Assembly (NCBI GenBank): GCA_927435855.1
Contig: CAKMJZ010000036.1
Span: 1-32,570, forward strand
Direction of reading: 5' to 3'
DNA length: 32,570 nucleotides
DNA from: an uncultured Erysipelotrichaceae bacterium
Lineage (GTDB): Bacteria; Bacillota_I; Bacilli_A; Erysipelotrichales; Erysipelotrichaceae
Shown: positions 11,815 to 32,570 of the stretch, piece by piece
Layout of the letters: the number at the start of each line of letters is the position of its first letter
How positions within the stretch are numbered: the first letter of the stretch is position 1
Program-made: the position numbers and the translations under genes
Notes under the pieces: generated by a model
The model's database searches: none
Told to the model about the DNA's origin: nothing
The model's input: the letters and a program-made list of their open reading frames with translations, nothing else

Positions 11815-11823
11815 GTATCCATA

Positions 11824-11848: not shown

Positions 11849-11869
11849 ATTTACAAAAAGGTGTCTCAA

Positions 11870-11898: not shown

Positions 11899-11941
11899 AT
11901 TATTATTCATACACTAATAAAAACTTAGGAAAGGAGCGATT

Positions 11942-13195: not shown

Positions 13196-13221
13196 ACTAC
13201 ACAATTACGTGTAGTTTTTTT
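13194..13221 (+). terminator. Intrinsic terminator after the lipoprotein gene
   Basis: AAACTACAC and GTGTAGTTT form a perfect 9-bp stem around AATTAC, followed by T residues. It overlaps the last bases of the TAA stop. A near copy lies at 22814-22840. Confidence 0.85.
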
Positions 13222-13299
13222 AGGCTCTACAATGAATGTTGGGGTAGAGAATAAAAAGGGACATAAGAAACAATTTCCGATACAATAAATCTGTCAAAG

Positions 13300-13684: not shown

Positions 13685-13686
13685 AT

Positions 13687-13716
13687 AAAAAAGGAACTCC
13701 TGGTATAGGAATTCCT
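13687..13716 (-). terminator. Intrinsic terminator after the GntR regulator gene
   Basis: On the minus strand AGGAATTCCT and AGGAGTTCCT form a 10-bp stem (one G-U) around ATACC, followed by six T. It lies 40 bp after the regulator stop. Confidence 0.85.
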
Positions 13717-13756
13717 ATCATCTCATGTTTATTGTGAGTTTACCCCAATATTTGAC

Positions 13757-16526: not shown

Positions 16527-16532
16527 AATGAT

Positions 16533-16922
16533 TTATTCTTTCATCGGGATTTTTCCCGTTACCCATAACACCTGCAGGGGTTGATTGCCTTTTTGCTTGG
16601 TTGTATGGAATAGACCAGGAGGGACATAGAGTCCATCGCCAGGCTTAATATCAAATTCTTCATCGCCTACGACCATTGTTCCCTCACCTGAAATCACGAA
16701 GTATACTTCTTCCATATCATCATGAACGTGTCCGGTTGTGGTTCCTGTCGCATAAATTATGGTGTATCCCATTTTAAGGCCTTTCGAAGGGCCTCCTTTT
16801 TCAAAATCAACAAGAAAATACGTATCTCTTAGTACAGGCTTATCACGATTCAACACTCTTGCGCGAAGTGATCTGGGATCAAGGTCCGCTTCTTTATCTT
16901 CGATATTGGTGACATATTTCAT
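16533..16922 (-). CDS. Small cupin protein
   Basis: 129-residue single-domain cupin. Motif 1 is GHVHDDMEEVYFVISGEG, giving metal ligands His65, His67 and Glu71 or Glu72. Motif 2 is PGDGLYVPPGLFHTT with His106. All four ligands are present, so it should bind a metal. In sugar-acid operons such proteins act as isomerases or epimerases, and some are lyases. Here the role is not determined. AGGAAG lies 6 bp before the ATG, and the gap to the hydroxyacid dehydrogenase gene is 22 bp. Confidence 0.85.
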   Translation of the reverse strand: MKYVTNIEDKEADLDPRSLRARVLNRDKPVLRDTYFLVDFEKGGPSKGLKMGYTIIYATGTTTGHVHDDMEEVYFVISGEGTMVVGDEEFDIKPGDGLYVPPGLFHTTKQKGNQPLQVLWVTGKIPMKE

Positions 16923-16944
16923 TTTTCTTCCTACTTTCTTTTGT

Positions 16945-17907
16945 TTATTGATTCATTTTCAATTTGACTTTATTGACAGAATTTTCAGGCTGATGTCCAT
17001 TGAGGACATGGATGATTCCTTCGATAGCCTCGATTGCGACGCGTTGGTTGCACTCGTTGGTCAGTGCCGCACTATGCGGCGTTAGGATTACATTGTCTTT
17101 TTGTGCCAAAGGATTGCCTTCGAGCATCGGTTCCACTTCAAATACATCGAGTGCCGCACCAGCGATTTTACCTTGATTCAAGACATCGATCAGATCGTTT
17201 TCAACTATCAAACCGCCTCTGGAGGTATTGATAATGAAACTCGTAGGTTTCATTATTTCTAGTAATCTCTTATTTATTAAATTGCTTGTTTTTTCGTTTT
17301 TTGGAATATGAATTGACAGAAAGTCTGCTTTTTCAAATAGTTCTTCAATCGTGGGTACCAAGACGATTCCCTCAGGCGCTGTAGTAAGGTAAGGATCAAA
17401 TCCGATGATTTGCATATTCAGTGCAGATCGGCATTTTTGTGCGACCATCAACCCAATCTTTCCACAACCAAGCAGTCCTAGTACTTTTCCATCGATGTCA
17501 ACGGCTTTGTTTGTGCGACGAACAGCGAAATTTCCTGTACGCGTCTGATTATCGTAGAATACGATTTGTTTTGCCAAGGCTAATATGAAAGTCAAAGTGT
17601 GTTCAGCGACGGAGATGGAATTCGCATTCGGCGTGTTCAAAACAAGGATGTTTAGATTTGTTGCTTCTTCAACATCGACATTGTCGTAACCTACCCCTGT
17701 CCTACTTATAACCTTTAGCTTTGTACATTTTTTCAGTAACTCCGCATTGATTTTAAAGGAGGTGCTCAACAATACAGCATCGGCTGTCGCAAGTTCGGAT
17801 TCGAACATACCTTTGTTTCCTTCGGGTACTACGACGACTTCGGCTAATTCGCTTAATCTTTTGACAAGATTCTCGCTGACTTTTTTCGTTAAGATAACTT
17901 TTCTCAT
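16945..17907 (-). CDS. D-2-hydroxyacid dehydrogenase (phosphoglycerate dehydrogenase-like)
   Basis: 320 residues of the D-isomer-specific family, which interconverts 2-keto acids and D-2-hydroxy acids with NAD(P). The Rossmann motif GLLGCGKIG includes Gly147, Gly149 and Gly152. Catalytic residues are Arg230 (NTSRGG), Glu259 (FEVEP) and His278 (TPHSA). Substrate loop: SRTGVGYDNVD (~68-78). There is no regulatory ACT domain, so it is more likely catabolic than serine biosynthesis. The ATG overlaps the DHDPS-like stop by 4 bp (ATGA), so the two are translationally coupled. It may reduce or produce the keto acid used by that aldolase. Confidence 0.9.
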   Translation of the reverse strand: MRKVILTKKVSENLVKRLSELAEVVVVPEGNKGMFESELATADAVLLSTSFKINAELLKKCTKLKVISRTGVGYDNVDVEEATNLNILVLNTPNANSISVAEHTLTFILALAKQIVFYDNQTRTGNFAVRRTNKAVDIDGKVLGLLGCGKIGLMVAQKCRSALNMQIIGFDPYLTTAPEGIVLVPTIEELFEKADFLSIHIPKNEKTSNLINKRLLEIMKPTSFIINTSRGGLIVENDLIDVLNQGKIAGAALDVFEVEPMLEGNPLAQKDNVILTPHSAALTNECNQRVAIEAIEGIIHVLNGHQPENSVNKVKLKMNQ

Positions 17908-18791
17908 ATGAGCTTTTCCGCTTCCAACTTCTGCTTTATGGATTCTTTTGTCTCTACTGGCAGTTCGAAAAGCGGTTTTCTCGGCTTGCCTCCAACATAT
18001 CCGGCAAGATCCATGGCATACTTGACAGCCGCAACTCCACCAGATCCAGAAACCGACTTATTCAGCATCATTATGCGATTGTTTATTTGACTCGTCTTTT
18101 CAATATCGTTTTTTATAAATTGTGTATAAAGCTCGTTTGTTAATTCTGGGAATGGATTGGCCAAGGAGATAACGCCTCCTGTTGCACCGTTTTGCATGGC
18201 TTCTAGAAAGAAATTAGCCGATCCAGCCATTACACATATTTTGTCTTTCACTGCAGATAGAAAATCAAGGATATTTCCGCTTGACGAGTCTTTGATTCCG
18301 GCGATATTTCTATGTTCGGCAAGCCTGCTTACCAAAGCAACGGACAATGTTGTTCCACCACAAAATTGGGGAGCGTTGTAGACTAGACACGGAATATCTA
18401 CAGAATTTGCCACATCGGAAAAATATTGATATAAGACTTCATCCGTCATCTCTTTTTTGAAATAGGAAGGCGGGAGAAGCGTGATGTAATCGGCACCGAT
18501 TTTTTGCATTATTTTAGCATAATAGATCGTTTCGATTGTGGACTCGAAAATACATCCGGCCATCACTACTTGATCCTTGCCTTTGTTCTCTACGATGACT
18601 TTCAAAACTTCCAATTTTTCTTCATTGGTGAGACTTTTATTCTCTCCATTTGAGCCGAGCGCTAAGTATCCGGAAATACCGGATTTTGCATATTTACGCA
18701 TGTTTACTTTTAAACCTTCCAAATCAACGCTCTCATCACTTAAAAAGGGCGTTGTTATTGGAGCAAATACTCCTTTTAAATATTCATCCAT
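17904..18791 (-). CDS. DHDPS/N-acetylneuraminate lyase-family aldolase
   Basis: 295-residue class I pyruvate aldolase of the DapA/NanA/KDG aldolase superfamily. GSNGE (46-50) is the keto-acid carboxylate loop (GTTGE in most DapA). VYNAPQ carries catalytic Tyr138, and AGIKDSS carries the Schiff-base Lys167. The operon context (kinase, dehydrogenases, UTRA regulator) argues for cleavage of a 2-keto-3-deoxy sugar acid or 4-hydroxy-2-oxo acid to pyruvate plus an aldehyde, not lysine synthesis. AGGAGG lies 6 bp before the ATG, 14 bp after the DeoC-like gene. Confidence 0.9.
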   Translation of the reverse strand: MDEYLKGVFAPITTPFLSDESVDLEGLKVNMRKYAKSGISGYLALGSNGENKSLTNEEKLEVLKVIVENKGKDQVVMAGCIFESTIETIYYAKIMQKIGADYITLLPPSYFKKEMTDEVLYQYFSDVANSVDIPCLVYNAPQFCGGTTLSVALVSRLAEHRNIAGIKDSSSGNILDFLSAVKDKICVMAGSANFFLEAMQNGATGGVISLANPFPELTNELYTQFIKNDIEKTSQINNRIMMLNKSVSGSGGVAAVKYAMDLAGYVGGKPRKPLFELPVETKESIKQKLEAEKLI

Positions 18792-18805
18792 AGCTACCTC
18801 CTGTT

Positions 18806-19528
18806 TTATTCTTCACTGGTAATGTTTTGAATGATTTCGCTTAATTCATCTACAATCATCGGCGCGTTTCTTGTTCCGATACGTTCAGCACCGGCGAATA
18901 GGCACCCTAGCACAACCATCGGCGTAAAGAAACTACCTGTCCCGGCAACTTTCACTTTCATGGAGGGTGGCGTATTCTTCCGCATTATTTCAACTTGTTG
19001 GAGGGTCGGTCCGCCATGTCTTCCTGTTGATGTTTTTACCCAATCTGCGCCAGCTTCAACCGACAGTTGACACGCCTTGATGATTTCTTCATCACTAAGA
19101 AAAGCGACTTCTAATATTACCTTGCACTCAATATCCGCATCATGGGCAATTTTTACAATTGCTTCAATGTCTTTTTTATAGTATTCGTAATCACCACCCC
19201 GAAGTTTACCGACATTGCTTACCATATCTATAACTCCTGGACGATGGTTAAGCGCTGTAACCGCATTCTTGGCTTCTATTACTTTAACTTCGGTAGGGTT
19301 TGTGCCAAAGGGGAAGCTGATGACAATTCCTGTTTCGATTCCTGTACCTTCAAGATGATCGGCAACGGTCTTGATCCAGATCGGATTCACATGGAACCCT
19401 TTGAAATTGTATGCTATCGCAACATCGCAATCTTTAAGTATCTCGGCTTCTGTCGAGTTTGGATTCAAATTTGAAAAATCCATTAAGCTTGCTATTTTTT
19501 CTCTAGTCAACTGTTTGAAATCAAACAT
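18806..19528 (-). CDS. deoC: DeoC-type (deoxyribose-phosphate aldolase family) class I aldolase
   Basis: 240 residues with the TIM-barrel signature of DERA. Asp101 (VIDMVSNVGKLRGGDYE) and Lys193 (KVKVAGTGSF) match the proton-relay residues, and Lys165 in DWVKTSTG matches the Schiff-base lysine. DERA joins or splits deoxyribose 5-phosphate into acetaldehyde and glyceraldehyde 3-phosphate. The N-terminal LMDFSNLNPNS differs from the usual DHTLLKP. No nucleoside phosphorylase or phosphopentomutase is nearby, and the neighbours are sugar-acid genes, so the substrate may be a related phosphorylated sugar. I start at ATG 19528 (AGAGGA 8 bp upstream). An upstream frame extension has no ribosome site. 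Confidence 0.88.
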   Translation of the reverse strand: MFDFKQLTREKIASLMDFSNLNPNSTEAEILKDCDVAIAYNFKGFHVNPIWIKTVADHLEGTGIETGIVISFPFGTNPTEVKVIEAKNAVTALNHRPGVIDMVSNVGKLRGGDYEYYKKDIEAIVKIAHDADIECKVILEVAFLSDEEIIKACQLSVEAGADWVKTSTGRHGGPTLQQVEIMRKNTPPSMKVKVAGTGSFFTPMVVLGCLFAGAERIGTRNAPMIVDELSEIIQNITSEE

Positions 19529-19624
19529 GTGTTTATCCTCTTCCTTCTTTCCTATCTGTTTCAAGATTATTTTGAAAATGAAATCTTAAATAGAGATTTC
19601 GAAACTAAAGAGATTGAAAACTTT

Positions 19625-19653
19625 AAAAAGCAGGGGAAGTAATTCCCCTGCTT
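19625..19653 (-). terminator. Strong intrinsic terminator between kinase and aldolase genes
   Basis: On the minus strand AAGCAGGGGAA and TTCCCCTGCTT form a perfect 11-bp stem around TTAC, followed by TTTTT. It lies 12 bp after the kinase stop and about 97 bp before the DeoC-like start, splitting what otherwise looks like one operon. Confidence 0.92.
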
Positions 19654-19665
19654 GGTTCGAATTAC

Positions 19666-21204
19666 CTATTCGTGTGTCTTCTTGAAATAACCACCTTTAC
19701 TGAGTGAATCATAAGCTGATTGGAATAGTCCGAATGCTTTTTCGTATGCTTTTACATTTGCCGGATTCGGAGTATAAGTTTCTTTAACATGTACTACTTT
19801 TTCGACAGCTTCGTTGTAGGTTTTGAAAAGACCTGCGCCGATACCTGCATAGATAGCAGCTCCTAAACAACCTGTTTCGGAAGTTTGCAGAAGTTTAACG
19901 GGTACTCCGTAAATATCTGCCTGCATTTGATTCCACAGTTTCGACTTGGTAGCTCCTCCTGTCAAACGTACTTCTTTAATATTGACTCCAGCTTTCTTCT
20001 GAGCTTCAAAGTTGTCCTTCATTTCGAAGGTGATCCCTTCCATGACTGCTCTGGCGATATCTCGTTTCGAAGTGGATAGAGATAATCCCAAGAATGCTCC
20101 GCGTGCGTAACTGTCACCGCGTGCTCCGCCGTCTGCACCTGCTAAATATGGTAGGAACGTTACGCCGTTCGCCCCAGGAGGAACAAGCGCAATCTGGGCA
20201 TTGATCAATTCATAAGGATCTACATTCATGCCTGGAGCTAATGCTTTTTCAAGGCTGGAGAACGTGTCTCTGTACCATCGATAACTAGATGCCGCTGTCG
20301 AAGATGCTGCTTCCATAGTGAAGGTTTCAGGTCCGACATTGCTCTTAACCATTAGAATCTTATTTGGATCGCGTACAGCTTTATCAGACCCTACGAAGAT
20401 CGATCCGTATGTTCCCATAACCAAAACCGCATCACCATCATTGACTAGTCCTGCTCCGATTGTCGAACAATTCTGATCATGCGCTCCAAGACAGATAAGT
20501 GTGCCTTCAGCAAGTTTCGTGATTTCTGAAACAGCCTTCGACACTTTACCTACGACCTGTCCACCACGTCCGATTTTAGCGAATTTAGCTTCGTCCAAGC
20601 CGAATGCTTCGAATATTTCTTTACTCCATACACGATTATCAACATCAAATACACCAAGGCGTTGTGCGGATGCTGTATCGGTCCAATATTCAGTTGCGCC
20701 AAATGCGCGCGTGAAGAAGTCTTGGTTTGTGCTATACATAGCTGTTTTGGCTGCGATTTCCGGTTCTTCGTCTTTAAACCATAGAATTTTTGTGCCAGCC
20801 AATACGGTACCGATACTGTATCCGGAGATTTTGTAATACAGATCAGAATTGATGATCTCGTTTTTCCGAATTTTCTCAGCATACTTGATACCGCGAGCAT
20901 CTTGCCATCCCATGAAAGGTCTGAGTAACTTACCGTTTTTATCTAACGGACCCCAAACGCCACCTTGTGTGGAGATAGCCATTGAAACAATATCCTTTGG
21001 ATCAACTTTTGACTTCTCGATAGCTGATCGAACCGAAGCGTATAAACCCTCTGTTATTTCGTCATCTTTTTGTTCGACCCATCCTGGATTGGGGAAATAA
21101 CATGGATACTCACGATAATCTTCTCCAATTACATTTCCACTGAGGTCGAATACTACTGCCTTACATCCTGTCGTTCCTTCGTCAAGCCCTAGCAAATACT
21201 TCAT
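19666..21204 (-). CDS. FGGY-family carbohydrate kinase (xylulokinase/LsrK-like)
   Basis: 512-residue sugar kinase with an actin-like ATPase fold, acting in the cytoplasm. N-terminal phosphate loop LLGLDEGTTGCKAVVFD (4-20), STQGGVWGPLD in the sugar-binding lobe, second-domain motif FLPYLAGADGGARGDSYARG (~354-373), and LTGGATKSKLW near the adenosine site. Length is normal. The substrate is uncertain: xylulose, erythritol and autoinducer-2 kinases share these features. AAGGAGG lies 6 bp before ATG 21204. It is the first gene behind the regulated promoter at 21439-21467, after a leader of about 230 nt, and is followed by a strong terminator. Confidence 0.91.
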   Translation of the reverse strand: MKYLLGLDEGTTGCKAVVFDLSGNVIGEDYREYPCYFPNPGWVEQKDDEITEGLYASVRSAIEKSKVDPKDIVSMAISTQGGVWGPLDKNGKLLRPFMGWQDARGIKYAEKIRKNEIINSDLYYKISGYSIGTVLAGTKILWFKDEEPEIAAKTAMYSTNQDFFTRAFGATEYWTDTASAQRLGVFDVDNRVWSKEIFEAFGLDEAKFAKIGRGGQVVGKVSKAVSEITKLAEGTLICLGAHDQNCSTIGAGLVNDGDAVLVMGTYGSIFVGSDKAVRDPNKILMVKSNVGPETFTMEAASSTAASSYRWYRDTFSSLEKALAPGMNVDPYELINAQIALVPPGANGVTFLPYLAGADGGARGDSYARGAFLGLSLSTSKRDIARAVMEGITFEMKDNFEAQKKAGVNIKEVRLTGGATKSKLWNQMQADIYGVPVKLLQTSETGCLGAAIYAGIGAGLFKTYNEAVEKVVHVKETYTPNPANVKAYEKAFGLFQSAYDSLSKGGYFKKTHE

Positions 21205-21427
21205 TTTTACCTCCTTCGTTAACGTTTTTTCAACGTTTGAACCTATTTAAAACTGCATAATCGTATAAATCCATTCCGCTGCTGATCAAGTTTACTTGTC
21301 TCAATTTTCGTTTTGTTTGATAAAGTATTTTTACTGTCGTGTCTAATGATTTATATACCACCCAAACGTTCAATTTCAAGTAATTAAGTGCGCCTAAAGG
21401 TGATGTTATATGATAATGTTATACCCT

Positions 21428-21435
21428 GTATATAC
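21428..21435. promoter_or_regulatory. HutC/UTRA-type operator on the kinase operon start site
   Basis: GTATATAC matches the HutC-subfamily consensus GT-N-TA-N-AC and is embedded in a longer near-palindrome (TGTATATACTGTATA). It covers the expected +1, a few bases after the -10 box, where bound repressor would block initiation. The linked UTRA regulator at 13757-14491 is the natural candidate. Confidence 0.5.
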
Positions 21436-21438
21436 TGT

Positions 21439-21467
21439 ATAATATCGCACTAATAACACAAAGTCAA
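21439..21467 (-). promoter_or_regulatory. Sigma-70-type promoter of the catabolic operon
   Basis: TTGACT, 17 bases, TATTAT on the minus strand (complement of 21462-21467 and 21439-21444), about 235 bp before the kinase start codon. Confidence 0.78.
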
Positions 21468-21486
21468 CCCTATGAGGAAGGAAAGT

Positions 21487-21500
21487 TGATAACGCTTACA
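21487..21500 (-). promoter_or_regulatory. CcpA catabolite-responsive element (cre), perfect match
   Basis: TGTAAGCGTTATCA on the minus strand fits all 14 positions of the cre consensus TGWAARCGYTWNCW. It lies 20 bp upstream of the -35 box of the operon promoter. Sites in that position can activate or repress. It implies control by CcpA and HPr-Ser-P, and supports a Bacillota origin. Confidence 0.75.
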
Positions 21501-21509
21501 TCATGTAAA

Positions 21510-21547
21510 TTTTTGCAATATATGCAAAAAAATACCACAATTGTGGT
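21510..21547. repeat. Two adjacent palindromes upstream of the cre site
   Basis: TTTTTGCA-ATATA-TGCAAAAA at 21510-21530, and the perfect 14-bp palindrome ACCACAATTGTGGT at 21534-21547. Neither is followed by a T tract of the kind seen in terminators, so they are better read as possible protein-binding sites. From 21548 to about 21780 I see no gene or clear signal. Confidence 0.45.
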
Positions 21548-21779
21548 CACAGACTGATGACAAGTGCTCCTTTTTTTAATGATTCACTAAAGACTGTTCA
21601 AAAACGGAGTTAAAAATCCTGTTGAGTTTCTAACCTTGTTTTTCTTCGAGTAAATACGTGGTTGATAAAAGAAGTAAAGGATGAAAATATCGATTATAGG
21701 GTTTATTTTATTGCCATTAACCATCATTTTTATACTCATTGATGCGAAAAAAGTACTTGTAATCCGGCACTTATGGATA

Positions 21780-22740
21780 TCTCAATACTACATATAAGAC
21801 AATCCTTGTTTCTCCCTTCCGTTCCCAATCACCCGCTCAATCAGTTAACGTGCTATGGTGGAAACTTTATACCCCGCATCTAAACCCATGCTTTGAATCA
21901 TTGCCCTAAAATACTTGATGGATTTTTCTCCTCATCATAAAAAATCGGTCATCATGAAGATCCTCTTAATCAATCTTGACCCTCATCACTTATCCTTATT
22001 GATCACATAACAGCTTATGCTATGTAAACAAATTGATTTACGTACTCGCCTTCATTAAAAATTTCACTTTCCGGATCAGCGATGCTTTGTTTGATCCACT
22101 TCTCTTTGGTACCGCGGGGTTTGGAGGTGTGAGACCTTTCGATTCGCCGAGTACATCACATTCATGATTCAATGCATTTTATAAACCCTCTATTCTTCCA
22201 GAATTAACTTTTCCTCCCCCTTTGCGTTTATTCGCATTCGCTTTAATATGGGTTGAATCCATATATATGCTCCGGATGGAAAAAGCCTTTCGCATTCGCT
22301 TGACCCAAGATTCGATTAAATACCTCTGCGAATACGGATTTGGATTCAGGCACTCCGATAATGGACGAATCACTTAAATGTTCTGACTAAATTTCCGTGT
22401 ATAGTTTTTTGAGAAGTCAGAGAAAAATGAATAGATTCTTCGACACTTAGCTCAGTGAACAGTTGATACATTAGATATTTTTCCGTTTCCACTACGGTTT
22501 TACGCATACTGTTTTACACATAAAGATGTTTGATAAACAACCGTTTAAACAGGATGATGGCATCGAAAATTCGACGCCCGATTGTTGAATAGAGCTACTC
22601 AATCTAGTCAAAGATATACCGGAAGTCAATAACTTAATCGACTTTCCGTGATAGATGGTTTTCCGGGATAAACGTCCCTAAATAATCACACTCATCTCAA
22701 GAGATTTTTGGATCGTTTTCGCAATCACTTGCGTCACCCT
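21780..22740 (-). pseudogene. Heavily decayed IS1182-type transposase
   Basis: Minus-strand frames, broken by many stops and shifts, give pieces in the right order for IS1182-family transposases: RRIFDAIILFKRLFIKHLYV near 22510-22570, SMRKT near 22500, SIYMDSTHIKANANKRKGGG near 22210-22270, KWIKQSIADPESEIFNEGEY near 22040-22105 (family pattern DPES...KG), and GLDAGYKVSTIAR near 21850-21890 (family pattern DAGYK). No intact frame above 64 codons remains. Exact ends and inverted repeats are not visible. Confidence 0.75.
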
Positions 22741-22780
22741 TGATACAACATTTTTATCATTTATAGTTTATCCTTACATA

Positions 22781-22812
22781 AAAAAGACTGTCGGCTTTTA
22801 TTTCGACAGTCT
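22781..22812 (-). terminator. Intrinsic terminator of the ABC exporter operon
   Basis: On the minus strand AGACTGTCG and CGACAGTCT form a perfect 9-bp stem around a 10-base loop, followed by TTTTT, about 33 bp after the permease stop. Confidence 0.8.
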
Positions 22813-22813
22813 G

Positions 22814-22840
22814 AAACTACACAATTAAGTGTGGTTTTTT
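22814..22840 (+). terminator. Orphan plus-strand terminator, near copy of 13194-13221
   Basis: AAACTACAC, loop AATTAA, GTGTGGTTT (one G-U), then T residues. The first 14 bases are identical to the terminator of the lipoprotein gene. No plus-strand gene lies upstream here, only the decayed transposase, so it may be a duplicated or stranded element. Confidence 0.6.
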
Positions 22841-22845
22841 AATGT

Positions 22846-23727
22846 TTAGTTGTTCTTCATCTTCTGAAAGCGCCAATAGTTCAAAGCAATTAATACAAAC
22901 GTAGAGAGAATCAGATAAATCACCATCATGGTGGGTGTTAATAAGGTATCTCCAATGTACAAATCGATTCCCTGAAACTTCATGTAGTTCTGGATGACGG
23001 TTTGAGGAGCACCGACGAAAACTTGTTGAATAGATGATTCCATAAAAACCTGACGAAGCAATGATGCGCCTTGCGATACGGGCATAAGGTTAGACACGAT
23101 TTGAACGCTCTTCGGCAATACGCCCATGGGGATGTACGCTCCGGTCACAAAACCGATCAAGGTACCCACTACCGTAGCAAATGTGGATAGTACGGACGGA
23201 TTTTCTATAAAAGATAACACGAACAGAATCAGAAACGTGGAAGATAGTATGCACAATAGTAAATAGAAAGACAGTCTTAACCATTGATCAAACGTGAACC
23301 AATCACCACCAGAAAATACGATATATACTTGCGATATGATGACGATCGAAATCGATATCAGAAGTACGATTAAAAACGTGGATGTGATATACGATAGAAA
23401 TAATTGATACCGCTTGATAGGGGCAACCATAAAATCATAAAACACTTTACGCTCCTTATCTAATACCATCCTACCGAGCGCACCGATGGAAAGTGTAATT
23501 GTGGATACAGCTAGAAGACCGGCCATCACCCAAGCGTTGACCATTGGTTTGACACCTTCAACGGAACGTCCAATTGAGCTCTCTATATTGAGTACTTGCA
23601 TATCGGAAAGAAAGAGTAAATATAATCCCAGAATAATAAACACGGACAAAAATGAAAAGAATACTTCAGCTCGATTGCGGAAGAACTGTAATAAATTGCG
23701 CTTTGTCAATTGAATCATAGCAGTCAT
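22846..23727 (-). CDS. ABC-2 type transporter permease
   Basis: 293-residue membrane protein with about six membrane segments. A short cytoplasmic start (IQLTKRNLLQFFRNRAEVFF) is followed by segment one, a large external loop (~42-62), and five further segments, with the ABC-2 motif SVLSTFATVVGTLIGFVTGA and GAYIPMGVLP. This is the layout of exporters such as the daunorubicin DrrB type. It pairs with the ATPase gene 2 bp upstream, whose stop lies just before ATG 23727, and GGAGG lies 8 bp upstream. The cargo (drug, peptide or polysaccharide) cannot be inferred. Confidence 0.9.
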   Translation of the reverse strand: MTAMIQLTKRNLLQFFRNRAEVFFSFLSVFIILGLYLLFLSDMQVLNIESSIGRSVEGVKPMVNAWVMAGLLAVSTITLSIGALGRMVLDKERKVFYDFMVAPIKRYQLFLSYITSTFLIVLLISISIVIISQVYIVFSGGDWFTFDQWLRLSFYLLLCILSSTFLILFVLSFIENPSVLSTFATVVGTLIGFVTGAYIPMGVLPKSVQIVSNLMPVSQGASLLRQVFMESSIQQVFVGAPQTVIQNYMKFQGIDLYIGDTLLTPTMMVIYLILSTFVLIALNYWRFQKMKNN

Positions 23728-23729
23728 AG

Positions 23730-24641
23730 TCAGTCCTCCCGAATGTTCTTTCCGGTCAATGTAATGAAAACGGTATCCATATTACCTTCCAGTACTTCAA
23801 AAGAATCGATAAGCGGTCGAAGAACATCAAGTACCAATAGTGAGTCAGATGAGTTTTGGGTATAAACTTTTATGACATCATTATTTACCTTAAATGGAAA
23901 GTTTGTTTCAATGACTTTATTGGTTGCTTGTTCCAAATTTGTTGGTAGGATACGCACCACGTTGGAAGTATACTTCCTCTTCAATTGACTTGGTGTATCA
24001 CATACAACCAACTTCCCCTGATCGATGATGGCTACTCGATCAGCGCGTTCCGCTTCTTCCATATAGTGTGTCGTCAGAAAGATTGTGGTCTGATCGTTCT
24101 TACGGATGTTGTTGATAACATCCCACACGCGTTTTCGGGTTTGAGGGTCAAGACCAGTTGTCGGCTCATCAAGAAACAATAGCTTTGGAGAATGAATGAG
24201 TGCACGGGCAATATCTGCTCGCCGCCTTTGACCACCTGAACATTTCCCATAAGGTTTATCTGCGATTTCATTTAGTCCAATCAACACATCCAACTCTTCA
24301 TATTTCTTATTGAAATCTGCCGAACTTAAGCCATAGAATCCTGCTCGAATCCGCATATTTTCTTTGACAGTTAGAAGGTCATCGAGAAATGAGTATTGAA
24401 ATACGACTCCGATACTTTTACGTATTTCATCGTCCTGCTTCCCTATAATGAAACCATTGACAATGATTTCCCCTTCGGTAGGCTGTAATAGGGTCGTGCA
24501 CATGTTAATGGTAGTGGATTTCCCGGCACCGTTGGGTCCAAGGAAAGCAAAGAACTCTCCCTTTTCAACACTTAAACTCAACTGATCGACTGCTTTCAAA
24601 GTCCCGAAATGCTTGGATAAATTGTTTACTTCTAAAATCAT
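23730..24641 (-). CDS. ABC-2 exporter ATP-binding protein
   Basis: 303 residues. Walker A GPNGAGKST (35-43), Q-loop VFQYS, signature CSGGQRRRADIARAL (134-148), Walker B LLFLDEP (154-160) and the His switch in TTHYMEEAERAD. After about residue 220 comes the extra C-terminal domain common in DrrA/CcmA-type exporter ATPases. AGAGGTG lies 6 bp before the ATG. It is the first gene of a two-gene exporter operon with its own promoter. The truncated FtsX-like gene upstream has a separate terminator. Confidence 0.94.
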   Translation of the reverse strand: MILEVNNLSKHFGTLKAVDQLSLSVEKGEFFAFLGPNGAGKSTTINMCTTLLQPTEGEIIVNGFIIGKQDDEIRKSIGVVFQYSFLDDLLTVKENMRIRAGFYGLSSADFNKKYEELDVLIGLNEIADKPYGKCSGGQRRRADIARALIHSPKLLFLDEPTTGLDPQTRKRVWDVINNIRKNDQTTIFLTTHYMEEAERADRVAIIDQGKLVVCDTPSQLKRKYTSNVVRILPTNLEQATNKVIETNFPFKVNNDVIKVYTQNSSDSLLVLDVLRPLIDSFEVLEGNMDTVFITLTGKNIRED

Positions 24642-24661
24642 AAAATCACCTCTTTATTGAA

Positions 24662-24690
24662 AGTATACTCGTTCGTTTTTACTTTCACAA
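24662..24690 (-). promoter_or_regulatory. Promoter of the ABC exporter operon with overlapping inverted repeat
   Basis: TTGTGA, 17 bases, TATACT on the minus strand, about 20 bp before the ATPase start codon. An exact 8-bp inverted repeat, TGAAAGTA (24658-24665) and TACTTTCA (24680-24687), covers the promoter and could be an operator for a local regulator. Confidence 0.7.
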
Positions 24691-24691
24691 T

Positions 24692-24713
24692 ATAAAACTC
24701 CCTTTCGGGAGTT
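24692..24713 (-). terminator. Terminator after the FtsX-like permease
   Basis: AACTCCC and GGGAGTT form a 7-bp stem around a GAAA tetraloop (minus strand), followed by TTTTATATT. It separates the permease gene from the exporter promoter directly downstream. Confidence 0.78.
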
Positions 24714-24752
24714 GGTTTTTCTGAAAATACGAGCAACTGATCTTTGATTATG

Positions 24753-25558
24753 CTAAATATCCATCTTTAATGCATCCACAATATTATCGCTCCGTATTCT
24801 TGCTACCGAATATGACATGGTTATGAACACCAGAGTGAAAATAACCAGTGTCACAAACGCAAAGCTTCCATAGGGTATTTGTACATCAACAATAAATCCA
24901 TCAGACATCGTTTGATTGATCAACGCAATGATAAATAATGATATTGGAAATCCAAACATCAACGAGCTCAATCCGTAGAACACACTTTCAAAGCGAACCA
25001 TTTTGTCAAAGCTCTGTGGTGTCATCCCTACCGATCGCAACATAGCAAACTCTTTTCTGCGCAGCTGAACGTTTGTTGTTATCGTATTGATGATGTTCAT
25101 CACACTAATCAATGAGATAAGGATGATGAAACCATAGACAAATACTTCCATCACCAAAATGGTGTTTGAAGTATTTCGATACTCAGATTTCATGTTATAG
25201 ATAATGAAACGAACTTCATCAGATTCATTAAGATATTCTCGGATTTCAACTTCATGCATCAGATCGTTTTTAGATTCCATGAATATATCATAATAAAGGA
25301 GCTCATTGTCTATCAAAGATGCAACGGAATCTTGATTGGTTATAAGAATTACTCCATAAAACATGCTATTTGAATATCCTAGGGGTGCCTTGTCGGTGAA
25401 AGATACGATATTAAGTTGTGCATTCTTGGTGATTTCACCACTTTCTGAATGGGTAATCTCGACATTAGCCGTAAACGGTTTCTCTTCAAAGATTTTTCCT
25501 GTGTAGCGCTTGTTATTGAAACTGTCCTTGGCTATATTGAGAACTATCACATTATTAG
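24753..25558 (-). CDS. FtsX/MacB-like ABC permease, N-terminal part lost at the junction
   Basis: About 268 C-terminal codons of a permease that should be larger. An extracytoplasmic region (IVLNIAKDSFNN to about SEYRNTSNT) leads into three membrane segments with the FtsX core: VMNIINTITTNVQLRRKEFA, then LRSVGMTPQSFDKM, and a last segment ending in ARIRSDNIVDALKMDI. The frame stays open beyond 25558 to 25733, but that part is the antisense of a TraB gene, is not part of this protein, and the GC content changes. No reliable start exists. The partner ATPase is not in view. The family exports lipoproteins or peptides, or senses antibiotics. Confidence 0.85.
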
Positions 25559-25568
25559 AATCCCTTGT
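25548..25568. other. Junction between two genome types
   Basis: At about 25558 two minus-strand genes are cut at once. The TraB gene loses everything after KENKGF, and the FtsX-like gene loses its beginning. Base composition, gene families and codon choice change at the same place. There is no IS, tRNA or att-like repeat at the join. Confidence 0.8.
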
Positions 25569-25803
25569 TTTCCTTGAGTATCGTCTTGATATTGAGGTTT
25601 TCCCAGCCCTGGACCTCGGTCCTTGAACGATAGCGTCCTTCGTCGAGTTCCACGCAGATGCGGTCGGGACCAATCTCGTCGATTGTTCGGGCAACTTCAT
25701 CGACACTATCTTGGGATACGTGTGCCGTTCCAATTAAAGTAATCTCTTTGCCGTCGGCACAAACAAGCCGTTGCATGGTATCGCTGATCCGTTCGATTGT
25801 CAC
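25558..25803 (-). CDS. TraB/PrgY-family protein, 5' fragment
   Basis: 82 codons remain. The start is GTG 25803, with GGAGG 7 bp upstream, giving an N-terminus like VTIERISDTMQRLVCADGKE. ITLIGTAHVSQDSVDEV and IGPDRICVELDEGRY are the metal-binding-type motifs of the TraB/TIKI family, followed by WENLNIKTILKENKGF, where the family would continue for a further ~200-300 residues. Here it stops at TAA right at the junction. Members are membrane-associated, possibly peptidase-like, related to pheromone shutdown protein PrgY; the bacterial function is poorly known. Confidence 0.83.
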
Positions 25804-25805
25804 CC

Positions 25806-25834
25806 TTGATCCTCCACGTTTGTACAAATATACT
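25806..25834 (+). promoter_or_regulatory. Possible divergent promoter of lysO
   Basis: TTGATC, 17 bases, TATACT on the plus strand, about 65 bp before the lysO start. Its -10 box overlaps that of the TraB promoter, so the two would compete for polymerase. Confidence 0.45.
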
Positions 25835-25855
25835 TATGATGGACAAAAGGTACAA
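25827..25855 (-). promoter_or_regulatory. Promoter of the TraB gene
   Basis: TTGTAC, 17 bases, TATATT on the minus strand, about 20 bp upstream of the TraB start codon. Confidence 0.6.
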
Positions 25856-25898
25856 GGACTTGCTTGAGTAAGGCAGATGTTTCCGCTAGTGTGTCGGT

Positions 25899-26819
25899 AT
25901 GCAGACGCTATGGTATCTCCTCAAATTGTTCCTCAGCCTTGGTCTTGGCGCGCTGGTTGCCCATTTGGCGGGAAAACAGCGGTTCCATAAGGGAACCGGG
26001 AAAGCCTTGGATGGTATCCTCTACAGCTTGTTGTTCCTCATGGGGGTCAACACCGCGAGGATTCCCGATATCAAATCCCAAATCATGCAGATTGGGCTCG
26101 ATGCGATTGTGGCTACGGTTCTGGTGACTATCGGATGCATCGTCACCGCCGTTTTGTTGGGGTTGCTGCTGAATAGGAAGGTGAGCCCTTCGCAACGTGT
26201 CGTGCAACGGATTACATGGGACAGGCTGAAAACACCGGTGGTTATGATCTCGATTGTGATAGCCGGGATTGCCATGGCATTGGTAACCCCTTGGTTCGAC
26301 TGGTTTGAAAGCTCGATGATAACCATTATCCTTTATCTATTGCTGTTTCTTGTGGGTATGCAGATGGTCCAGCATGAAGTGGATCTGATTCCCCTGTTGA
26401 AATCCCCATTGATGTTCCTGTTGCCACTCTCAACCGTCCTGGGAACGTATTTGGGTGCTTTGGTATTCCCCTTGGTCTCCACCTACACTCTCCGGGACTC
26501 CCTGGCGCTTGTCTCGGGATTCGGCTGGTACTCATTATCGGGAGTCTTGATCAGCAGTCTCGGCGACCCCCAGTTGGGAGCAGTCTCCTTTTTAAGCAAT
26601 CTGTTCAGGGAGTCGCTGGCATTCATCCTCATTCCGGTTGTATCTGCACTATCCCATGCCTCCTTTTCCGCCATCAGCATAGCCGGGGCGACAAGTATGG
26701 ACGTCACACTGCCGTTGTTGAAAAAGAGTCTTGGCGATTCTGTGGTTCCCTTGGCGATCGCACACGGAGTGATCATGACGCTCCTTGCGCCGTTTCTCAT
26801 TCCGTTGTGGTTTGTATAG
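25899..26819 (+). CDS. lysO: LysO-family (DUF340) lysine exporter
   Basis: 306-residue membrane protein with about eight hydrophobic segments. Family motifs: ARIPDIKSQIMQIGLDA near residue 55, GFGWYSLSGVLISSLG near 208-223, NLFRESLAFILIP and AGATSMDVTLPL in the second repeat, and the terminal IAHGVIMTLLAPFLIP. LysO exports lysine or its toxic analogues in E. coli. No clear Shine-Dalgarno precedes ATG 25899, so the exact start is uncertain. It runs tail to tail into the gene at 26797-27225 with a 23-bp overlap. Confidence 0.9.
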   Translation: MQTLWYLLKLFLSLGLGALVAHLAGKQRFHKGTGKALDGILYSLLFLMGVNTARIPDIKSQIMQIGLDAIVATVLVTIGCIVTAVLLGLLLNRKVSPSQRVVQRITWDRLKTPVVMISIVIAGIAMALVTPWFDWFESSMITIILYLLLFLVGMQMVQHEVDLIPLLKSPLMFLLPLSTVLGTYLGALVFPLVSTYTLRDSLALVSGFGWYSLSGVLISSLGDPQLGAVSFLSNLFRESLAFILIPVVSALSHASFSAISIAGATSMDVTLPLLKKSLGDSVVPLAIAHGVIMTLLAPFLIPLWFV

Positions 26820-27225
26820 CGGCGATCAGTTGGATCGCAAAGTCGGATTCACGCTCCTTGTAAACGCGGACGAAGAATTGCATTTCATCTTCCTGTTGGG
26901 AATCCCCCGATAGGACGAACCGATTGAGTAGGGGGATGAGGGCTGTTCCGGTTTGGGGAGGAAAGGTAAGCTGGGAGAACAGGTAGGTTCCCATGGGAAT
27001 AGCGATAAGGCTTGGCTCTGTTTCCTCCGGCTCGCGGAAGGCAACCGAATGGCAGTTCAGGATACAGATTTCATCTGTCATCGTCGCAGAGCAAACCATG
27101 CATCCGTCGGATCCGATAGGGCTTTCCTCGAGTTTTCGCAGAAGCATGTCGAAGGATTGGTCGCACTGCTTGGGGTTTTCCAGAATATGTGTATAGGATA
27201 AGGGTTGTTGTAGATGCAGTTTCAT
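26797..27225 (-). CDS. Hypothetical protein, unrecognised
   Basis: 142 codons from ATG 27225 (MKLHLQQPLSYTHILENP) to TGA 26797, with balanced amino-acid content and a C-terminal VRVYKERESDFAIQLIAAI. It has four cysteines and no signal peptide or membrane segment. A longer minus-strand frame extends to 27654, but that extension is the shadow of the plus-strand metalloprotease gene. The ribosome site is poor. The start lies only 16 bp from the divergent neighbour start, leaving no separate promoter space. It may be a real small cytosolic protein, but I cannot assign a family. Confidence 0.55.
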   Translation of the reverse strand: MKLHLQQPLSYTHILENPKQCDQSFDMLLRKLEESPIGSDGCMVCSATMTDEICILNCHSVAFREPEETEPSLIAIPMGTYLFSQLTFPPQTGTALIPLLNRFVLSGDSQQEDEMQFFVRVYKERESDFAIQLIAAIQTTTE

Positions 27226-27241
27226 GGGAGATGCACTGTTC

Positions 27242-27973
27242 ATGGATAGGATTGTAGTAAAAACAGCTGGCAAAGTACAGTATGAACTCATCAGAAAATC
27301 GAATAGGCGCCGGATTGCCTTGCGAGTAACCGACGATGCACGTGTAGTGGTTTCAGCACCAAGCAGAACCCCAAGGACAACGATAGATCGGTTTGTCGCG
27401 GACCACGTCGATTGGATAGAACGGAAACTTGCGGCTGTCGGCTCATTGCCAAAGACTCTTCCCGAACATACGTACATGGACGGCGACCGCTTCCTGGTTT
27501 TTGGGGAGGAGAAGATCCTGAAGGTCCAGAGGGGTGGAGTAGCTACCACCACTTGCGAGCTTGTGGAGGATACCTTGGTGGTCCACGCCCGCAATGGGGC
27601 AAAAGGTGGAGCAATCGGAAAAGCGATCACGCTTTGGTACGTGGAACTTGGCAACCAGGTATATGGCGAGCTGGTGGAGAAGTGGATAAGCAGGATCGGG
27701 CAAGCCGAAGTGAGCCGACCTGTGGTGGTTTCAATGGCCTCCTACCCCAAGCGTATGGGCAGTTGCTCCCAGAAGGGAGACCTGCGGTTTGCGATCCGTT
27801 CATTGATGCTGCCGTTACCATTGGTGGATTATCTGGCGTTGCACGAGGTTGCCCATCTGGTTCACTTCAATCATGGAGATGCCTTCAAGCGAATGCTTGG
27901 GGAATGTATGCCGGACTGGAAACATCGACAACATGAGATGTCCTCCTTGCGAATCAGAACCGCGCATATTTGA
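27242..27973 (+). CDS. YgjP-like (DUF45) zinc metallopeptidase domain protein
   Basis: 243 residues. The N-terminal part has the family pattern (ELIRKSNRRRIALRV, then VVVSAPSRTP and HVDWIERKL). The C-terminal part has the zinc motif LHEVAHLVHFNHGDAF with HExxH, preceded by LPLVDYLAL. The usual third ligand, a histidine in FNHGDAF, is present. Proteins of this family occur alone or next to restriction systems. Their substrates are not established. I prefer ATG 27242 because conserved sequence starts there; an in-frame ATG at 27224 is also possible, and neither has a good ribosome site. Confidence 0.88.
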   Translation: MDRIVVKTAGKVQYELIRKSNRRRIALRVTDDARVVVSAPSRTPRTTIDRFVADHVDWIERKLAAVGSLPKTLPEHTYMDGDRFLVFGEEKILKVQRGGVATTTCELVEDTLVVHARNGAKGGAIGKAITLWYVELGNQVYGELVEKWISRIGQAEVSRPVVVSMASYPKRMGSCSQKGDLRFAIRSLMLPLPLVDYLALHEVAHLVHFNHGDAFKRMLGECMPDWKHRQHEMSSLRIRTAHI

Positions 27974-28215
27974 TTCCCCAACGAAACGAGGGTAGCGGAA
28001 CAATTACTATTGGTCCATTACCGAGTGAGTGCAGGAAACGTAGGGTGAGATACCCCGCCACTTGGGGCGGTAGCGGGGGCGAAGCCTCCCGGGTCCGGCT
28101 CCTGCCCTGGGGTTGCGATACCATTCATCCCTTGTCGCAGCAAAATTGGCACGAATCTACCAATCGGCCATGATTTGTGATATAACGGGAAGACGAAACC
28201 GATGTGGGAGGACGC
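27974..28215. other. Intergenic region with a GC-rich, hairpin-rich core
   Basis: No gene. Bases ~28050-28120 are far richer in GC than the flanks. They can form CCGCC/GGCGG and GGGGGC-GAA-GCCTCC (28075-28089) hairpins, and CCGGGTCCGG adds another. No T tract follows, so a simple terminator is unlikely. An extended -10 (TG-A-TATAAC at 28178-28186) near the right end may be the promoter of the flavoprotein gene. Confidence 0.45.
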
Positions 28216-29448
28216 ATGAAACCGGATACTTTGGCACCTGGCATCCACCGTGTATATGCACGTATTGGCGATAGGGATTTGTTCGAGGGCATTTGGCCGA
28301 TACCTCATGGGGTGTTGTTGAACTCGTATGTTGTGCAGGGAACCGAGAAGACTGCCTTCATCGATCTTGTGAAGGATTGGGAAGGAGCTGTTGGTGCTGT
28401 CGAGCAGCAGATGGCCGCCCTTGGCCTATCGTTCAAGGATATCGATTACCTTGTTTTGAACCACATGGAGCCGGACCACACCGGTTCGTTGGCCGAATTG
28501 TGCAAACAGAATCCCAACATCGAAATCCTCTGTACCAAAAAAGCGGTTCCGCTTGTCGAAGCCTTCTACGGAATAACGGAAAAGGTCAGATCTGTCGCGT
28601 CGAAAGAGACTGTCGATCTCGGGGGCAAGACTCTGGTTTTCGAAGAGACGCCGAATATCCATTGGCCTGAGACGATGATGACGTACGTGCCGGAGGACGG
28701 GGTGCTCTTCTCCTGTGATGCCTTCGGATCGTTCGGCCAATATGAACATTGTTTCGACGACGAATTGACCACAGCCGAATGGGAGCTGCTCATACCCGAA
28801 ACCGAACGCTACTATGCCAACATCGTCTCCTCGTTCAGCCAATTCGTACTGCGGGGTATCCAAAAATTGGCTGGACTCGATATCCGTATGGTTGCCCCGA
28901 GCCACGGAATCGTGTGGAGGAAAGATCCTGCGAGGATTATCGAACTGTACAAGACGTTGGCCGAAGATATGAACGGGCCAGCCGAAGCGGAAGTGACCTT
29001 CGTATGGAGCAGCATGTACGGCAATACGGCAGCACTTGTCCCCATAATCAAGAAGACACTTGAGGATGAAGGTTTGACGGTAAGGATGCATGAGGTCCCC
29101 AAGGAGCATGCCTCCTTCGTACTGGCATCCGCTTGGCGCACAAGCGGCCTGGTTATCGGCATGCCGACGTACGAATACCGCATGTTCCCTCCCATGTACC
29201 ATATCTTGGATATCCTCGAGAGAAGCCATGTGAACAATCGCAAGGTCATGCGTTTCGGTTCCTTCGGATGGTCCGGCGGTGCCCAAAAGCAATTCGACCC
29301 TTTCGTTGAATCCTTGAAGTGGGATTGTGTCGGAGTCATAGAATATCAAGGGGCTCCTACTGAAGACGATAAGGCAAGGGCAATCGGCACAGCAAAAGAA
29401 CTGGCTCGCAGTGTGAAGGACTGGAGCCGGAAGAAAACAGTGGAATAA
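28216..29448 (+). CDS. FprA-family A-type flavoprotein (flavo-diiron protein)
   Basis: 410 residues. The N-terminal metallo-beta-lactamase-like domain carries the diiron motif HMEPDH (~77-82) and downstream ligands in FSCDAFGSFG and APSHG. The C-terminal flavodoxin domain starts around residue 260 with the FMN loop SSMYGNT and GMPTYEY. Such proteins reduce oxygen to water or nitric oxide to nitrous oxide in anaerobes, protecting them from oxidative or nitrosative stress. GGGAGGA lies about 4 bp before ATG 28216. No rubredoxin partner is in view. Confidence 0.94.
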   Translation: MKPDTLAPGIHRVYARIGDRDLFEGIWPIPHGVLLNSYVVQGTEKTAFIDLVKDWEGAVGAVEQQMAALGLSFKDIDYLVLNHMEPDHTGSLAELCKQNPNIEILCTKKAVPLVEAFYGITEKVRSVASKETVDLGGKTLVFEETPNIHWPETMMTYVPEDGVLFSCDAFGSFGQYEHCFDDELTTAEWELLIPETERYYANIVSSFSQFVLRGIQKLAGLDIRMVAPSHGIVWRKDPARIIELYKTLAEDMNGPAEAEVTFVWSSMYGNTAALVPIIKKTLEDEGLTVRMHEVPKEHASFVLASAWRTSGLVIGMPTYEYRMFPPMYHILDILERSHVNNRKVMRFGSFGWSGGAQKQFDPFVESLKWDCVGVIEYQGAPTEDDKARAIGTAKELARSVKDWSRKKTVE

Positions 29449-29483
29449 TCGGTTTCACCTTGACGATCGTGTTTCCGGATTCC

Positions 29484-30959
29484 TCAAGAAATGATCGGAC
29501 AGAGATGCCGCAGGAATTCGGCGATTCTCGCAGTCGAAGAAATGGAAACCCGTTCCTTGGGCGAGTGGACATCCATGAGGTTCGGGCCGAGCGAAACGGA
29601 ATCCATACCTTCCACAAGCGAGTTGATGATACCGCATTCCAACCCTGCGTGGATTGCGGTTATCTGCGCTTTCTTGCCCATATGCTTCTTCCATGCCGTG
29701 GCACAGAATCCTGCAAGCGGTGAGGACGGGTCCGGAGTCCATGCCGGGTACGGATTCTCCAGCTTGCATGTGGCTCCAGCGGTCTCGAAAGCCAAAACGG
29801 CCCTTTTCGCAATCATGTCACGGGAAGAGAGTATCGACGATCGATGACTGGTGACCAAGGTATACGCCTTGTCAGTGGTTTTGATAACCGCCAGGTTGGA
29901 GGAGGTCTCCACCATCCCGTCAATGGTCTGGCTCATCCGTTCGACACCGTGTGGAGCAAGACACAGTGCATTGATCATAGCCTCGCTCTGTTGTGCCGTC
30001 GATGCTTCGGTCGCCTGCTTCCTTGACTTGGCGATAATCAGGTTGATTCCCGGATCTGCTTGTGCATATTCCTTCTTGAGGTCCTTCAATACTTGTGTGG
30101 CAATCGATTCTACAAGCTCAAGCCGTTCCGAGGGTATCGAAACGGTTGCACGGCAACTGCTGGGAATGACATTGCGTTTTGTGCCACCTGCCATGTGCAC
30201 CAACCGGACAGTACATTCGTCCGATATCGTTCGCAACAGACGGGCCATACAGGATATCGCATTTGCACGCTGTTTGTGGATTTCTCCACCCGAATGTCCC
30301 CCAAGCAATCCGTCGAGCGTCACATCCAACAAGAGTTCACGTTTGGTGACCGGGGATAGTTCAAGCGGCACGGATGCGTTGATTTCAACACCTCCGGCAC
30401 AACCGATGAAGAAGATTCCCTCTTCCTCACTATCCAGGTTGAGCATCTTCCTGCTATCTATCATGGATGCATCGAGTCCGAAGGCGCCTTCCAATCCGGT
30501 TTCTTCCGAAGTGGTGAAAATCGCTTCCAATGGACCATGTGAAGCTTCGGGATCGGTGAAAAGGTCGAGGGCCAGGGCAATAGCGATCCCATTGTCGGCT
30601 CCAAGAGTCGTTCCTCTGGCCTTGAGCCAATCCCCGTCGCGTTCAAGCACCAATGGATCGGTGGCAAAGTTGAATTCGACATCGTCCTCCTTTACACAGA
30701 CCATATCCATATGGCCTTGCAATGCCAGGGAGGGGACATGCTCCATTCCTTTCGTTGCCGGAACCTTGATAATCACATTTCCAGCATCATCGACTTGGAA
30801 AGCGAACCCATGTTTCTTGGCGAATTCGACCAGGTATGCGCGTACTTGACCTTCGTTCCCCGATTCCCGCGGAATCTGGGTAAGATCGAGAAAATAATTC
30901 CAAAGCCTTTGCGGCTGCAAGCCTTCGACCGCACGTTCAGATGCACCATGTTGAGCCAT
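29484..30959 (-). CDS. pepD: Aminoacyl-histidine dipeptidase (M20 family)
   Basis: 491-residue cytosolic dipeptidase with broad Xaa-His and related specificity. Two-zinc site: LQGHMDMVC, GADNGIAIAL, TSEETGLEGA, LNLDSEE, and the C-terminal HAGLECGII. The lid domain contains GLLGGHSGGEI. It starts at ATG 30959 with an AGGGGGA just before it; the spacing is short. It follows nagA by 22 bp on the same strand and probably shares its transcript. It converges on the flavoprotein gene with a 35-bp gap that holds no visible terminator. Confidence 0.94.
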   Translation of the reverse strand: MAQHGASERAVEGLQPQRLWNYFLDLTQIPRESGNEGQVRAYLVEFAKKHGFAFQVDDAGNVIIKVPATKGMEHVPSLALQGHMDMVCVKEDDVEFNFATDPLVLERDGDWLKARGTTLGADNGIAIALALDLFTDPEASHGPLEAIFTTSEETGLEGAFGLDASMIDSRKMLNLDSEEEGIFFIGCAGGVEINASVPLELSPVTKRELLLDVTLDGLLGGHSGGEIHKQRANAISCMARLLRTISDECTVRLVHMAGGTKRNVIPSSCRATVSIPSERLELVESIATQVLKDLKKEYAQADPGINLIIAKSRKQATEASTAQQSEAMINALCLAPHGVERMSQTIDGMVETSSNLAVIKTTDKAYTLVTSHRSSILSSRDMIAKRAVLAFETAGATCKLENPYPAWTPDPSSPLAGFCATAWKKHMGKKAQITAIHAGLECGIINSLVEGMDSVSLGPNLMDVHSPKERVSISSTARIAEFLRHLCPIIS

Positions 30960-30981
30960 GCATTCCCCCTAGAGCAAGTTG

Positions 30982-32163
30982 TTATGAAAAATTGTCACGT
31001 ATCATAGTACCACGGATAAACAGGCCCTTGACGACAAAATCCTCGTCGAAAACCACGATATTTGCCAGGTATCCCGGAGTCAACCGTCCCATGAGCGACA
31101 TATCGTAGATACGTGCCGGATTGGCGGTAGCCATCTGTATCGCCGACTCGATGGGAACTTCCCAATCCACGAGATTCTTCACACCTTGCAGCATGGTAAG
31201 CGAGGAGCCCAACATGACATCGGGATCATCCGCCCTGTGGAACGCCCCATCATCGGCCAGGATTGCGATTTCCTTGTTGGACAATAGCTCGCCACCCTTT
31301 TGCATGGTTGGCTTCAAGGAATCGGTAACCAATACGACGTTCCTGACTTGTTTGTCTTTTAAAAGCAACTTGACCAATTCCGGGTGCACGTGTACTCCGT
31401 CGGCAATCACTTCGCACTGCATATCCTGCTCGATCAGAATAGCTCCGACCGTACCCGGGTTCCTTTGGTGGAGTCGGCTCATCGCATTGAAGAAGTGGGT
31501 CGAGTGGAGTATTCCGACCTGCATGCCCTCAATAATGTTCTCATAGGTGGCATTCGTATGTCCTGCAAGCAAAACGACACCCCGTTTGATTGCAGTGAGT
31601 GCCAATTCTCGCATCCCCTTCAATTCTGGGGCTACCGTCATACAGACAATATGGCCTTTGCCCGCTTCAATAATCTTTTCGAACAAGGCCACGTCGACCG
31701 GTTTGACGCCGTCGGCATTTTGTGCCCCCAACCGGGCCGAGGAGATGAACGGACCCTCCACATTGATCCCAAGTATGGTGGCTCCGGTTTCCTCTCCTAT
31801 CGCCTCGACCGTGGCTTCGATCGATGCGAGCATCCTCTCGGTCGTATCTGTGTAGATGGTTGGAAAGAATCCGGTCACCCCAAAATCGGCCAACCGTTCG
31901 GACATGCCGAGGATCGATTCGGTCTTCGCGTCTTCGGTTCCGAATCCTCCGATTCCATGGATATGGGTGTCGATGAATCCGGGTGCGATGAAGGCGCCCT
32001 TGACGTCGATGGTTTCTGTGCCTGGGGGAAAGCGCTTCTGCTGGAAGCGTTTCATGTTGAAAATGTCTCCGATGTTTCCTTCGGAATCAATGAACAAACC
32101 GCAATTCTGCAATTTCGCCGAACCGGTGACTATGGTTCCATTGATCAGGACGGTGGTTCCCAT
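30982..32163 (-). CDS. nagA: N-acetylglucosamine-6-phosphate deacetylase
   Basis: 393 residues. Removes the acetyl group from GlcNAc-6-P, giving glucosamine-6-P in amino-sugar and wall recycling. Amidohydrolase motifs: HIHG (His67, His69), NVEGPFIS with Glu136, AGHTNAT with His202, THFFNAMS with His223, and the catalytic Asp281 in LVTDSL. AAGAGG lies about 7 bp before the ATG. It lies between a MATE transporter gene and pepD, all on the minus strand and closely spaced. nagB and a sugar transporter are not in view. Confidence 0.95.
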   Translation of the reverse strand: MGTTVLINGTIVTGSAKLQNCGLFIDSEGNIGDIFNMKRFQQKRFPPGTETIDVKGAFIAPGFIDTHIHGIGGFGTEDAKTESILGMSERLADFGVTGFFPTIYTDTTERMLASIEATVEAIGEETGATILGINVEGPFISSARLGAQNADGVKPVDVALFEKIIEAGKGHIVCMTVAPELKGMRELALTAIKRGVVLLAGHTNATYENIIEGMQVGILHSTHFFNAMSRLHQRNPGTVGAILIEQDMQCEVIADGVHVHPELVKLLLKDKQVRNVVLVTDSLKPTMQKGGELLSNKEIAILADDGAFHRADDPDVMLGSSLTMLQGVKNLVDWEVPIESAIQMATANPARIYDMSLMGRLTPGYLANIVVFDEDFVVKGLFIRGTMIRDNFS

Positions 32164-32206
32164 ATGGTGCCTCTTACCTAGAATATAAAGCCCGGCTATC
32201 GGACGG

Positions 32207-32570
32207 TCAAGCCAAGTCCCCGCCCGTGGCAGGCAGGTCCTCGGTGAGCCTGTTTACCCATTTGCCGCTCTTGATCCTGAACATCCCCACAATCCACTTG
32301 AATGCCTCTTCCAACCCGACAAACAGGTACAGGTAGTAGATCGGAATACCGAATACGAGAGCTCCGAGGAAGGCACAGGGAACTCCGATCAACCAGACCC
32401 CGGCCAGCTCGACGAACATGGAGAACCGGGTGTCTCCCCCCGAACGGAGCACACCGACGACCAGCACCATGTTGTAGGCCTTGATGGGAATCAACAGACC
32501 CAAGGAGATCAGGGACAAGGTAGTCATACGGGCGACCGGAGGACTCAGGTTGAATGGAAGGGGAAGCCAT
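32207..32570 (-). CDS. MATE-family efflux transporter, C-terminal part (5' end off window)
   Basis: The frame is open from the window edge through LPFNLSPPVARMTTLSL, GVLRSGGDTRFSMFVELAGVW and VPCAFLGALVFGIPIYYLYL to a basic tail ending in TGGDLA, about 121 codons. LRSGGDTRFSM in the loop before the last membrane segments is typical of MATE proteins, which expel drugs or metabolites in exchange for Na+ or H+. The stop lies 43 bp before nagA, so the genes may be co-transcribed. An overlapping frame reaching 32196 is a shadow. Confidence 0.83.
   Translation of the reverse strand, partial: WLPLPFNLSPPVARMTTLSLISLGLLIPIKAYNMVLVVGVLRSGGDTRFSMFVELAGVWLIGVPCAFLGALVFGIPIYYLYLFVGLEEAFKWIVGMFRIKSGKWVNRLTEDLPATGGDLA

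Follow-up and report, generated by a model that had tools for sequence, protein, structure and literature searches.

The window analysed here, a stretch of 32,570 nucleotides, is the entire contig C36 of the draft genome G000 (70 contigs, 1,565,446 bases, 69.7% complete), and with a probability of about 0.97, as judged from sequence comparisons, it is an inter-species chimera: an assembly artefact that joins native sequence to spirochaete sequence, and not a case of gene transfer. We consider the join an artefact because its left side is found uninterrupted in the same bin, its right side uninterrupted in another MAG, and the join itself in none of the other genomes probed. Each side thus has an intact and different continuation in its source genome, and both phylogenetic profile and composition differ on either side of one point. 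An assembly chimera had been put forward as the simplest account in a first-pass annotation; this account is supported, both sources having been found and the join only in C36. The features on which the argument is built are collected in Table 1.

Table 1. Features of the window on either side of the join, with the evidence for each.
Feature	Coordinates	Strand	Evidence
Native part, belonging to G000	1..25568	n/a	GC 0.404, tetranucleotide correlation 0.917, synteny blocks
FtsX-domain ABC permease, C-terminal 271 of 854 residues	24753..25568	-	Pfam FtsX, E 4.9e-20
Exact overlap of 92 bases with C43:61-152 of G000, the true continuation	25477..25568	n/a	Base-by-base comparison
Junction zone, sequence common to both sources	25558..25568	n/a	Three-way comparison
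TraB-family gene, first ~86 residues, cut at the join	25569..25827	-	TIGR00261 positions 3-64 of 380
Foreign part, spirochaete sequence	25569..32570	n/a	99.84% identity to PGXU01000005.1 over 25558-32570

Each side was searched separately, as the annotation had proposed; the left led to contig C43 of G000 and to four same-genus genomes, the right to a single spirochaete MAG. A 1-kb query around the join also hit C43:58-152 in G000, where the match to the window stops exactly at 25568. Followed via C43, the sequence gives a permease reading frame of 854 residues that starts with an ATG, and the N-terminal two thirds lacking in the window are located on C43; the next ORF upstream (238 codons) shows in its translation what we take to be ABC-ATPase motifs. 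The homologous frame runs unbroken past the join point in the four same-genus genomes, G001, G002, G004 and G005 (769, 769, 602 and 771 codons within the fetched stretches, respectively), whose permeases are 81-89% identical to the restored 854-residue protein. Of seven searched genomes in the genus, G000 counted, five have this part of the permease, with no match in G003 and G006, and a 2.76-kb left-side query gave no match in two spirochaete genomes. Synteny with same-genus genomes covers the window blocks 4101-13222 and 24741-25568. That the left side is Bacillota-like, as first described, is plausible from its dnaB, rplI and GdpP-like gene order, and is held at that strength.

The description of the right side as spirochaete-like is confirmed, with a close match to one MAG: positions 25558-32570 aligned without gaps to PGXU01000005.1 (locus L005 of 'Spirochaetae bacterium HGW-Spirochaetae-4') over 7013 bases, 11 of them mismatched. 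Whereas the truncated TraB ORF of the window (25555-25827) matched the 263-position Pfam profile at positions 6-67 only, the gene is whole in L005 (4401-5630, 410 codons from stop to stop), and the loci L006, L014 and L008 of related spirochaetes align to L005 across the point at which the window departs from it. The suggested Sphaerochaeta-like character was recovered in a protein search of named genomes, in which the flavodiiron-type protein (28204-29448) was 100% identical in HGW-Spirochaetae-4, 97% identical in HGW-Spirochaetae-2 (L006) and less so in other Sphaerochaeta-like genomes. A query from the start of the right side (25558-25900) matched 16 of 61 genomes (G041 plus 60 taken from the same family), the best matches among these being G041 (99%) and G042 (96%). 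With the PepD protein as query, all homologues found in relatives outside the window were distant, at 46% identity or less, which would agree with a foreign right side and is not decisive alone. G000 holds no second copy of the right side, which rules out a duplication of the spirochaete segment within that genome. The 173-base intergenic stretch at 27974-28146 is common to the window and L005, whereas L006 has about 19 bases in its place.

Base composition changes at the same point, as had been reported. The GC content is 0.404 for positions 1-25568 vs 0.525 for 25569-32570 (a sliding profile was also computed). Tetranucleotide usage, proposed as a check, was compared as the correlation of log observed/expected values, with 20 other contig starts of G000 and the spirochaete flank as references: the left segment correlated at 0.917 with the other G000 contigs and at 0.733 with the spirochaete flank, the right segment at 0.651 and 0.850, respectively.

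As identity with C43 extends through 25568 and the spirochaete alignment begins at 25558, the break must lie within 25558-25569, a zone overlapping the junction first placed at 25548-25568. The earlier observation of two same-strand genes cut at one point proved correct: the FtsX-like and TraB genes both lie on the minus strand and are both truncated. Their ORFs end at 25733 and 25827 and their frames differ, so the join is not an in-frame fusion. Seven bases (CCCTTGT, 25562-25568) are exactly common to both sources; counted from 25558, the common stretch may be as long as 11 bases, should the wobble difference at 25561 reflect strain variation. Four of the 11 mismatches to L005 (25561, 25570, 25573 and 25576) fall within the first 19 of the 7013 aligned bases and share one codon position in TraB, with the window agreeing with L008 and L014 at the latter three. 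We read these differences as probable strain variation in TraB beside the join; their crowding at 25561-25576 points to join-adjacent sequence of a strain that differs somewhat from the reference HGW-Spirochaetae-4, and a second spirochaete strain may be involved.

A probe of 321 bases (25400-25720) was compared with eight genomes, namely G000, the four same-genus genomes and three spirochaetes. The same-genus genomes matched 25400-25568 or 25400-25562 only (from 25405 in G004), the spirochaetes 25558-25720 only (to 25719 in one), and C36 alone spanned the join; its recurrence in an independent genome, which the first-pass annotation had named as evidence against a chimera, was found in none of the seven other genomes. 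Consistent with the annotated lack of a mobile-element boundary, the window holds no tRNA, the sole match of an Rfam scan of the window (7526-7695) lies away from the join, no recombinase was named by family scans of the junction genes and of the right-side genes scanned, no repeat was seen at the join, and the 1 kb surrounding it had no match in a search of plasmids.

Other contig ends of G000 are also unusual. Inverted copies of terminal sequence lie within 3 kb of 4 of the 40 ends of contigs C1-C20 (3 of 20 starts, 1 of 20 ends), the affected ends being those of C6 (L106), C16 (L116), C17 (L117) and the end of C8 (L128); to these is added C43 (L003), whose first 66 bases are an inverted copy of C43:332-397, joined over about 6 shared bases (C43:61-66). 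The copies measure 41-118 bases, with spacers of 133-2005 bases. None was found at 292 internal positions of G000, at the window's own two ends, or at 20 contig starts each in G005 and G001, where some contigs are short. These copies are likely artefact hairpins, and their presence at several contig ends suggests a chimera-prone library or assembly. Chimeras can also be produced by library PCR. In the account of MDA chimeras given in PMC1855051, most are inverted sequences and more than 70% of junctions carry 2-21 complementary bases.

For the inter-species chimera, the following course is proposed. The left 25,568 bases come from G000, where the permease really continues into C43, and the right 7,002 bases from a Sphaerochaeta-like spirochaete that is almost identical to HGW-Spirochaetae-4. 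The two sources were most likely bridged by one or a few chimeric molecules or reads, probably primed on the 7-11 common bases, where the assembly path may already have been weak or branching; the assembler would then have followed this bridge, so that the true continuation ended up in a contig of its own. A curation paper reports that assemblers, rarely, produce scaffolds chimeric between two organisms, and it describes no two-organism scaffolds other than such assembler chimeras (PMC7111523). C36 resembles these cases in that profile and composition change abruptly at one point, the flanking genes are both cut and the true continuation lies elsewhere in the bin; unlike them, where read pairs and coverage are the usual criteria (PMC7111523), it is judged from sequence. 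As in the MDA-type chimeras described in PMC1855051, the joins in G000 involve few shared bases and inverted companion chimeras occur at contig ends; those chimeras are inverted within one genome, whereas the main join of C36 lies between two organisms.

The bridge need not have been a molecule. In a purely computational misjoin, local assembly or gap closing would have linked the contigs without any chimeric molecule, and PMC7111523 voices the suspicion that IDBA-UD assemblies often contain local assembly errors. HGW-Spirochaetae-4 appears, by its name, to be among the MAGs of the Horonobe study; the scaffold name of HGW-Spirochaetae-2 begins with 08E140C01, a borehole sampled there, and the methods described for these MAGs comprise IDBA-UD assembly with k 40-100 and a TruSeq Nano library, with no mention there of MDA or whole-genome amplification (PMC5520028). 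That G000 belongs to this study is conjecture, prompted by its nearly identical right side. The common stretch of 7-11 bases is far below the smallest k (40), so a k-mer repeat cannot explain the join, and the inverted contig ends suggest real chimeric molecules. We therefore regard chimeric reads as the likelier origin of the bridge, and a purely computational join as possible, at rather less than even odds.

Real recombination, in which a fraction of G000 cells would carry spirochaete DNA in the permease gene and C43 would represent the uninterrupted cells, is very improbable. A mixture of both forms would likewise yield an overlapping intact contig, but 7 kb at 99.84% identity would require very recent transfer, GC content and tetranucleotides are unameliorated, neither a recombinase nor a tRNA or repeat was seen at the join, and support comes from one contig and one edge, with none of the four same-genus genomes that have the gene carrying the join. 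Nor does the segment look like a transferred island: one edge only was found, with no second edge in the recipient, no tRNA and no recombinase among the right-side genes scanned; C36 ends inside spirochaete sequence, without return to G000 sequence, and the segment was found neither in relatives nor elsewhere in G000. A very recent, microhomology-mediated uptake of spirochaete chromosomal DNA into the ABC permease gene in a subpopulation, with members of the two phyla sharing a sample, deserves equally little credence. That the spirochaete MAG is itself in error, its TraB region being contamination from the G000 lineage, can practically be dismissed: nothing was found in its favour, the L005 locus extends over 17 kb and aligns along its length to L006, L014 and L008, and the rest of this locus has no further match on the contigs of G000.

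Within the native part, some 9.6 kb (13223-22813) are absent at this locus in G001, G002 and G005, whose alignments jump from 13219-13222 to 22814, 22845 and 24741, and gave short matches only among 41 genomes searched. The genes of this stretch encode a GntR/UTRA regulator, an aldehyde dehydrogenase, a cupin, a 2-hydroxyacid dehydrogenase, a DHDPS-family protein, a DeoC/LacD-like aldolase and an FGGY kinase; by this content it is a predicted sugar or sugar-acid catabolic insertion. A pair of genes for an ABC-2-type permease and an ATPase (22814-24741) adjoins the FtsX permease in G001 and G002 and is absent there in G004 and G005. In the region 7526-11814, a cobalamin riboswitch (RF00174, 88.9 bits, 7526-7695) lies upstream of genes for a cobalamin adenosyltransferase and a B12-dependent ribonucleotide reductase.

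The significance of the chimera is confined to data hygiene. In practice, C36 should be split near 25568 and the final 7 kb excluded, and the inverted ends of other G000 contigs call for equal caution. The genes from 25569 on (LysO-like, YgjP-like, flavodiiron-type, PepD-like dipeptidase, NagA) are not to be credited to the G000 organism, and conclusions about gene transfer or gene neighbourhood should not be drawn across the join.
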